This document shows positions 30,850 through 33,222 of a stretch of DNA of 37,186 nt, piece by piece. A program made the position numbers and the translations under genes. Every line of letters starts with the position of its first letter. Within the stretch, counting starts at the first letter, position 1. Below the pieces are notes generated by a model. That model saw only the letters and a program-made list of their open reading frames with translations. It made no database searches and had not been told where the DNA came from. Source of the stretch: Flavobacteriaceae bacterium (GTDB lineage Bacteria; Bacteroidota; Bacteroidia; Flavobacteriales; Flavobacteriaceae); the NCBI GenBank assembly GCA_002690805.1, contig NZFW01000010.1, positions 1 through 37,186 on the forward strand, written 5' to 3'.

Positions 30850-32238
30850 ATGTTATCTGAAAATACAATAGTCGCATTAGCATCTCCTCAGGGTACAGGA
30901 GCTATTGGTGTTATAAGAATATCAGGTTCTGAATCTATTTCAATTGCTTCAAAATGTTTTGAATCATATAGAGGCATAAAATTAATTGATCAGTCCTCTC
31001 ATAAATCATTTCTAGGTTGGATTAAAGATGGAGATCAAATAATTGATAAAGTATTAATTACAATTTTTAAGGGCCCAAATTCGTATACTGGAGAAGATAT
31101 TATTGAAATTTCATGTCACGGTTCAAAATATATACTTCAAGAAATTCTTCATTTAATAATTAAGAATGGAGCTGAACCGGCTAAGCCAGGTGAATTTACA
31201 CTAAGAGCTTTTTTAAACCAAAAGATGGACTTAACTCAAGCTGAGGCAGTTGCTGATCTAATTTCATCTGAATCTAAAGCTGCACATGAATTAGCTATCA
31301 ATCAGATTCGAGGAGGTTATTCTAAGAGTATTAAAGAATTAAGGAAAAAACTGATTCATTTTGCATCAATGATTACTCTTGAGCTTGATTTTTCAGAAGA
31401 AGATGTTGAATTTGCGGATAGAAAAGAATTTTTAAAACTTTTAAATGAAATAGAACAACAATTAAAAGATTTATCTGAATCATTTGCATACGGAAGCGTT
31501 ATAAAAAACGGTGTCCCAGTAGCAATACTAGGAAAACCAAATTCTGGAAAATCCTCTCTCTTAAATGCTCTACTTAACGAAGATAAAGCTATAGTGTCTG
31601 ATATTGAGGGTACTACTCGAGACAGCATTGAAGACACTTTAATAGTTGAAGGAATTCAGTTTAGATTTATTGATACCGCAGGTTTAAGAGAAACAAAGGA
31701 TTCAATTGAATCAATTGGTGTTAAACGAGCTATTGAAAATGCAAAAAAAGCAAATATTTTATTATACTTATATGATATTACTGATACAGATTATAAAAGC
31801 ATTTTAGATCAGCTAAAAACAATATTGTCGTTTAATAAAAAAACCATACTAGTTCAAAATAAAATGGATCTTTCCATAGATGATAAGAAAATAAGAACTC
31901 TAATCAAGGATGAATTTCCCCTCCTACCTCCTGCTCTACCAATAATAACTCATAAAAAGGAATCAATTGACAGATTAAAAATTGAATTAATTGAAACTGT
32001 AAATAAGATGTCCAATGCGAGTGAAACTATAGTATCTAACGTTCGCCACCACTCATCCCTACAGAGTGCCCTAAAAGATATAATACTAATTAAAAAAGGA
32101 ATGAAAAACAAAATATCTGGAGACCTTCTATCTGTAGACTTAAATTCTGCAATTCAATCACTTGGGGAGATAACTGGCGACATAAATACTGATGATATTT
32201 TAGGAAACGTATTCCAGAATTTCTGTATCGGGAAATAA
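30850..32238 (+). CDS. mnmE: tRNA uridine-5-carboxymethylaminomethyl(34) synthesis GTPase
   Basis: The 462-residue protein works with MnmG to modify U34 of certain tRNAs, using a folate derivative and potassium-stimulated GTP hydrolysis. The N-terminal folate domain shows ALASPQGTGAIGVIRISG (9-26) and SCHGS. The G domain is inserted in the helical domain with G1 GKPNSGKS (228-235), G2 TTRD (255-258), G3 DTAG (275-278) and G4 NKMD (337-340). The C-terminus ends FCIGK with the catalytic-site Cys459. The last codons form the sequence used elsewhere as an integration site by SGI1-type elements, and a recombinase remnant lies just beyond. Confidence 0.97.
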   Translation: MLSENTIVALASPQGTGAIGVIRISGSESISIASKCFESYRGIKLIDQSSHKSFLGWIKDGDQIIDKVLITIFKGPNSYTGEDIIEISCHGSKYILQEILHLIIKNGAEPAKPGEFTLRAFLNQKMDLTQAEAVADLISSESKAAHELAINQIRGGYSKSIKELRKKLIHFASMITLELDFSEEDVEFADRKEFLKLLNEIEQQLKDLSESFAYGSVIKNGVPVAILGKPNSGKSSLLNALLNEDKAIVSDIEGTTRDSIEDTLIVEGIQFRFIDTAGLRETKDSIESIGVKRAIENAKKANILLYLYDITDTDYKSILDQLKTILSFNKKTILVQNKMDLSIDDKKIRTLIKDEFPLLPPALPIITHKKESIDRLKIELIETVNKMSNASETIVSNVRHHSSLQSALKDIILIKKGMKNKISGDLLSVDLNSAIQSLGEITGDINTDDILGNVFQNFCIGK

Positions 32239-32256
32239 TTACGTTTCATTATCCTT

Positions 32257-32300
32257 CCTTTTAGCGCCCTAAAGGTCTGATTTTGTGCATGTTATGTGCA
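32257..32300. other. Hairpin and TGTGCAT direct repeat between mnmE and the recombinase remnant
   Basis: CCTTTTAG-CGCC-CTAAAGG (32257-32275) can form a seven-pair stem with one bulged base. It is followed by two copies of TGTGCAT with an 11-base period (32284-32290 and 32295-32301). Such repeats beside an integrase scar could be recombinase arm or core sites, but chance cannot be excluded and no second end of an element is visible. Confidence 0.3.
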
Positions 32301-32544
32301 TAACTAAGTTTTTAATCTTCCTTATTCTACCCATGAGAATAATAAACTTCAAAAATGGGCTGGAATGTCAGGTGTAAAAAAGACAATTACTCCTCATTGT
32401 GGACGAGCTACATTTGCCAATTTGTTTATAAAGATTCCAGCATATAATATTATAGATTTAATGAAAATTATGGGACATAAAGAGGTCAAAACTAGTCTAT
32501 GTTATATTGGACACAAGTCTATTGGAAATGACTCAAGTAATTAG
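32294..32544 (+). pseudogene. Tyrosine recombinase (phage-type integrase) C-terminal remnant
   Basis: No intact gene lies here, but the frame ending at the TAG at 32542-32544 reads HENNKLQKWAGMSGVKKTIT, then PHCGRATFANLFI, then IIDLMKIMGHKEVKTSLCYI. This carries the signature of a tyrosine recombinase C-terminus: H-x-x-R (HCGR), G-H (MGHKEVKTS) and the final tyrosine position in CYIG. About 10 residues upstream the similarity moves to another frame (KFLIFLILP, 32306-32332), which implies a frameshift near 32330. The N-terminal three quarters are absent. It lies 55 bases after the mnmE stop, in the same orientation, and is a degraded integrase left by an element once inserted at mnmE. Confidence 0.7.
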
Positions 32545-32594
32545 AAAATTTCCTAAGGTATTGAATTAGATTATATACAATACGTATGACTCTT

Positions 32595-32628
32595 AAAACC
32601 CTCTGAAGTATTTATTTTAGGGGGTTTT
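32595..32628. terminator. Bidirectional rho-independent terminator
   Basis: AAAACCCTC (32595-32603) pairs with GGGGGTTTT (32620-32628), a nine-pair stem with one G-T pair and a 16-base loop, T-rich on both outer sides. It stands between the mnmE/recombinase remnant (plus) and the lipoprotein gene (minus, ending at 32641), so it can stop both transcripts. Confidence 0.6.
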
Positions 32629-32640
32629 ATTATCCTATAA

Positions 32641-33222
32641 TTATTTTGTGTTAAAAACACCCATTGCAAATCTATAATTTTTTTTCTCAGATTTATATAA
32701 ATCTAATTTATCAAGAGCAAGTGTGTCCTTATTTAGGACAATTTCAAATAAATTTATTTCATCATCATCCATTTGATATTTTTTCATGAGCAAAGAATTA
32801 TCTTTTATTTCAGAAATAAATTTTCCTAACTCCTTTACAATAATTTTTTTATTCTGCCCCATAATTCCAATCATCAATTCAAGAGAATCGTTTACATTAG
32901 TACTATTAAAATCCAAATCAGCTTTCATTAACTTACCTACTTCTTCTCCCACATACATATAACCCCTCATTGCACGAATGTCATCTGCATTATTAAACCA
33001 TAAAAAACCTCCGGTGTCATCCATCCAAAGCTTAGTTGAATATCCATCTTCACCCTTGTCTTCAAGCACATCAGATATATATAAAATTCCTTCTACATTA
33101 ACTATTCTATCATTAGGAGTATAATCAGTATCAAGCATTACCCACTGTCCAGCAATTGGATTGTCTGGACCACCACATCCGATTAATAGAACTAAACCTA
33201 AAACAAATAATAATTTTTTCAT
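32641..33222 (-). CDS. Lipoprotein, possibly lipocalin-like, 193 aa
   Basis: The signal peptide MKKLLFVLGLVLLIGC ends in the lipobox LIGC, so Cys16 should be lipidated; the GGPDN after it fits surface or outer-membrane sorting. The mature part begins IAGQWVMLD, a G-x-W start like that of small lipocalin-like domains, then alternating strand-like segments (GILYISDVLED, FLWFNNADD). Similarity to a lipocalin is only suggestive. No catalytic motif is visible. It lies 23 bases downstream of a two-helix membrane protein gene on the same strand, likely one operon, and ends at the terminator at 32595-32628. Confidence 0.65.
   Translation of the reverse strand: MKKLLFVLGLVLLIGCGGPDNPIAGQWVMLDTDYTPNDRIVNVEGILYISDVLEDKGEDGYSTKLWMDDTGGFLWFNNADDIRAMRGYMYVGEEVGKLMKADLDFNSTNVNDSLELMIGIMGQNKKIIVKELGKFISEIKDNSLLMKKYQMDDDEINLFEIVLNKDTLALDKLDLYKSEKKNYRFAMGVFNTK

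Follow-up and report, generated by a model that had tools for sequence, protein, structure and literature searches.

Directly behind mnmE in the window (the whole stretch of 37,186 nucleotides that was analysed, from Flavobacteriaceae bacterium; assembly GCA_002690805.1, contig NZFW01000010.1) lies a degraded tyrosine integrase gene. Very probably it is a scar left by an integrative mobile element whose target site was the 3' end of mnmE. As such the scar is ordinary, a normal end of an integrated island: it is a pseudogene, and both the type of gene and the type of site are known. Moderately interesting is the site, which, judged by sequence comparison, is an integration hotspot in the Flavobacteriaceae.

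The integrase remnant and its intact counterpart

mnmE (trmE/thdF; 30850 to 32238, plus strand) is an intact host gene of 462 aa (Pfam MnmE_helical, E = 6.7e-48; TrmE_N, E = 6.4e-40), and its 3' end is the target site. The following 402 bp (32239 to 32640) are the longest internal stretch without an intact gene in the ORF table of the window, as the preliminary description had noticed. Here, an open frame on the plus strand (32308 to 32541; 78 aa), whose translation includes TPHCGRATFANLFIKIPAYNIIDLMKIMGHKEVKTSLCYIG, carries TPHCGR (HxxR), MGHKEVKT, which is the GHKxxKT/GHxxxxT motif of tyrosine recombinases, and a Tyr in LCYIG. The search of the frames with PF00589 that had been proposed did give a match in this frame (E = 0.0078; profile positions 112 to 166 of 172), but with 16.5 bits it stayed below the cut-off of 27.1 bits, as expected for a fragment spanning about a third of the profile. 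PHROG 216 (integrase; phage integrase family) matched with E = 4.7e-10, and the nearest solved structures were IntI4 and XerA, with weak scores. Taken alone, these profile matches are suggestive of an integrase.

The identity of the remnant was settled by an intact homologue in the same genus. The metagenome-assembled genome JAQWSK01 (G052) encodes a complete integrase of 377 aa directly behind its own mnmE (G052:C5:1762-2892; L039), which scored 36.8 bits with PF00589. The remnant was 95.6% identical to this protein over 68 residues, and at the DNA level 259 of 266 aligned columns (97%) were identical over 32313 to 32579 of the window. The integrase 3' fragment (32313 to 32579, plus strand) thus comprises roughly the last 84 of 377 codons and some bases after the stop codon, and the alignment to the G052 gene places about 293 of the 377 residues, all N-terminal, among the missing part; the identity to G052 ends just beyond the integrase stop codon. 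The same alignment revealed a +1 frameshift after the codon of the active-site Tyr, with one extra base around 32512 (TTGGACACAAG versus TTGGAACAAG in G052). The former C terminus, TSLLEMTQ.IRKFPKVLN, is still readable in the other frame (32465 to 32569), and by comparison with the homologue the frameshift is real. The preliminary description had spoken of a degraded tyrosine recombinase with an apparent frameshift and no N-terminal part, and the motifs, PHROG 216 and the G052 gene bear this out. It had located the frame 55 bases past mnmE and within 32239 to 32594; the remnant does lie directly behind mnmE and inside this interval, but its homology begins only 75 bases past the mnmE stop codon (32238) and ends at 32579.

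When the remnant was aligned with 34 full-length relatives, the C-terminal catalytic motifs (HxxR, GHxxxxT, Tyr) were present. A complete tyrosine recombinase gene also has a core-binding domain, box I and a catalytic Lys; all three are absent here, and the frameshift follows the Tyr. By its sequence, the remnant is therefore a pseudogene of the tyrosine recombinase family and no working member of it. The rest of the integrase was also sought elsewhere in the window genome; the complete PF00589 proteins there were limited to two, each of about 300 aa and neither with the N terminus belonging to the remnant. Genome contigs searched with the intact G052 integrase gave a match solely in its own metagenome-assembled genome, neither the intact integrase nor the left-end repeat had a match among viral contigs, and phage records contained only distant integrases with less than 30% identity.

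The presumed attachment site and the borders of the scar

The presumed attachment core (32221 to 32252, plus strand) consists of the last 18 bases of mnmE (FCIGK*) and the following bases common to G052, TTACGTTTCATTAT; immediately beyond the mnmE stop codon, the window genome and G052 are identical, and every occupied locus begins with this 3' end. When the window and its genome were searched for a further mnmE end (attR), none was found, and the best matches in the window were no better than those of shuffled sequence. No recognisable attR in the window thus marks how far the lost element extended.

The old left end contains a candidate arm-type direct repeat with a period of 11 bp, TTTTGTGCATGTTATGTGCATAAC (32281 to 32304, plus strand); at a lag of 11, 8 of 9 positions agree, a level reached by 2.3% of shuffles. 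Short repeat pairs with a period of 11 bp were found between mnmE and the integrase in many intact loci, and their sequences vary by element: the window has TGTGCAT repeats, whereas G052 has TGTGGA repeats, TTTGTGGACTATATGTGGATA. Since the integrase tails of the window and G052 are nearly identical but their left ends are unlike, the scar is probably composite and would derive from two tandem elements at the mnmE hotspot that were fused by a deletion. The case for a tandem origin depends on 74 bp of the left end that found no counterpart elsewhere in 397 family genomes; tracing the left end (32216 to 32316) in these genomes gave matches confined to the mnmE end, barring a few weak short ones. 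Tandem integration is reported for SGI1 (PMC2297512).

On the right, an inverted repeat with T/A runs (32594 to 32629; 17-nt arms, 82% complementary, 2-nt loop) is probably a terminator that separates the remnant from the converging gene of a predicted lipoprotein of 193 aa (32641 to 33222, minus strand), which matched no family above the Pfam cut-off. The genes beyond the remnant, for the lipoprotein and a two-helix membrane protein, had been proposed as possible cargo or older neighbours. Searches of six congeners and of 396 other family genomes gave no homologue of the lipoprotein, so that it is no older neighbour common to the genus. It is possibly left-over cargo, but no attR lies beyond it to mark it as part of the element; the two-helix protein, too, may or may not be cargo.

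Origin of the scar and competing explanations

How the scar may have arisen can be outlined from these data. The integrase would have recombined the circular form of the element with the terminal ~18 bases of mnmE, and the mnmE 3' end would have been rebuilt from the attP copy of the element, leaving mnmE intact. Later deletions would have taken about 293 integrase codons, everything to the right of the integrase and the attR repeat, and a +1 frameshift would then have struck the residual frame, so that neither excision nor integrase activity would remain. The mnmE genes of the window genome and G052 are only 76% identical at the DNA level, whereas the integrase fragments are 97% identical, which argues for a recent horizontal arrival of the element rather than common descent with the chromosome; most likely, the element reached the window genome in this way. 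An integrated element that was lost and left its integrase end behind had already been proposed, and this proposal gains support from the G052 gene, from the integrases of other congeners and from putative attL/attR pairs in eight family members. Behind mnmE, one congener has an intact integrase of the same type; in further congeners, and in about one in four of the family members sampled, this position holds other intact integrases.

The window genome is a draft of 38 contigs with 74% completeness, the site is variable among relatives, which favours mis-joins, and a different metagenome-assembled genome matches the fragment at 97% identity. Each of these facts would fit an assembly chimera, in which the metagenome assembler joined the integrase tail of an element from another organism to the contig. 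This is nevertheless improbable: the fragment lies inside the contig, whose end is about 5 kb away, the sequence shared at the left border amounts to a few bases only (AATCTT) and the right border is abrupt, which is too short for a k-mer join, and seven differences from the G052 copy, including the frameshift, argue that the fragment is not simply DNA of that organism.

Integrases of similar length behind mnmE in many genera, together with flanking genes common to the integrases of one group, could also be read as a solo integrase that is inherited vertically beside mnmE and decayed in this lineage, with no mobile element involved. However, the types at the site are only ~30% identical within one genus and one genome is without any, the remnant is much closer to the G052 integrase than mnmE is to its counterpart, and attL/attR repeats at eight loci as well as relaxase-type genes behind the integrase at several make such inheritance very improbable. 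It is scarcely conceivable that the remnant is a small functional gene whose product would act by itself in DNA binding or regulation: its 78 codons are open and the first ATG lies at 32365, giving a frame of 59 to 78 aa, but the product would have neither a core-binding domain nor box I nor the catalytic lysine, a frameshift alters its C-terminal end, and the short form was conserved in no genome searched, nearly all matches lying in frames of 290 to 450 aa. The scar of an integrative element thus remains the preferred reading.

The mnmE 3' end in the genus and the family

Within the genus, full-length integrases were found behind mnmE not only in G052 but also in G151 and G152, where they are intact and of another type (65% identical to each other, 29 to 30% to that of G052); the contigs of G052 and G151 end inside the element, which cuts the element limits there. 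G150 has no integrase behind mnmE, and the drafts of the other two congeners contain no mnmE. The mnmE-ubiE interval, whose comparison had been suggested earlier, is not conserved: the upstream neighbours of ubiE differ in G052, G152, G149 and G153, and in G151 ubiE lies at a contig end. The elements of G151 and G152 have in common an HTH_17 protein of 77 to 78 aa (L040 3753-3989; G151 C36, L084), possibly an excisionase or a regulator. The canonical arginine of box I is absent from the integrases of G052, G151 and G152, which have TALPHKECR or TGQAHEECR in its place; TGxR is present in 30 of 31 other full-length mnmE-linked integrases compared, and G004 has SGLR. In CTnDOT-type integrases, the first arginine is missing and is substituted by one further downstream (PMC8138268). 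By analogy, the R of ECR may be a candidate substitute for the missing arginine.

Across the family, 139 genomes had a clear mnmE. In at least 35 of them, among which are the window genome and G052, the gene is directly followed on its own strand by an integrase of this broad type; the number is a lower bound, since relatives of one integrase only were sought. In eight of these genomes (G031, G071, G073, G083, G107, G113, G118 and G138), the mnmE-end pattern TTYTGYATHGGNAARTA occurs again on the contig, in the same orientation and 16.5 to 49.6 kb downstream, and the reversed pattern, used as a control, gave 7 scattered hits across all 39 genomes. Such repeated mnmE 3' ends are what attL and attR sites would be expected to show. 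The intact relatives have the domains Phage_int_SAM_5 and Phage_integrase, with Arm-DNA-bind_5 in G118, and behind the integrase of G118 follow genes for an HTH_17 protein, a DUF5906/VapE-like (primase-like) protein, a Toprim/zinc-finger protein, a NikA-like mobilisation protein and a relaxase. Integrases of several types occupy the site (for example, L107, L111 and L115), and a quarter or more of the family genomes sampled have one there. Further broken integrases right behind mnmE were seen in G018 (L129; frames of 63 and 128 aa) and in G100 (L123; 108 and 281 aa); thus, the scar in the window is not alone.

SGI1 and related gammaproteobacterial islands integrate at the 3' end of trmE/mnmE (PMC8409611, PMC6531882, PMC5704250). 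Going by the published descriptions, they resemble the element considered here in having a tyrosine integrase, in targeting the trmE/mnmE 3' end and in leaving mnmE intact. Unlike the host here, a flavobacterium, the hosts described for SGI1-type islands are Gammaproteobacteria, and these islands need IncA/IncC helper plasmids; furthermore, the window keeps only a degraded integrase tail, whereas related intact islands carry a MobA/VirD2-like relaxase and a NikA-like protein. The integrases of CTnDOT, NBU1 and Tn4555 belong to the IntCTnDOT subgroup, Bacteroidetes integrases with an arm-binding domain, in which the SGI1 integrase is also classed (PMC8138268). The intact relatives have Phage_int_SAM_5 and Phage_integrase, and in G118 also Arm-DNA-bind_5, so that they may be comparable; the remnant retains the C-terminal part only. 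CTnDOT and NBU1 use other target sites, which for NBU1 is a Leu-tRNA gene (PMC8138268). Bacteroidetes integrative and mobilizable elements (IMEs) encode their own relaxase, and the same source lists trmE as a target of gammaproteobacterial IMEs (PMC5704250). Intact elements at the mnmE site, such as that of G118, resemble canonical Bacteroidetes IMEs in having an integrase, an HTH protein, a mobilisation protein and a relaxase; in the window, the HTH, mobilisation and relaxase genes are all absent and the integrase is reduced to its tail.

It is likely that unrelated mobilizable islands repeatedly enter the mnmE hotspot of the Flavobacteriaceae, in the genus of the window by integrases without the canonical box I arginine. 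This would be SGI1-like targeting in another phylum, of which no description was found: the literature covered, which was partial, contained no report of an element integrated at trmE/mnmE in Bacteroidetes or Flavobacterium. The end of the gene at which SGI1 inserts in Gammaproteobacteria would then be a heavily used landing site in the Flavobacteriaceae as well, where a single genus has two or more integrase types. The mnmE 3' end would provide a constant position at which the mobilizable islands of flavobacteria, marine ones and others, can be found, dated and compared, even in draft genomes.
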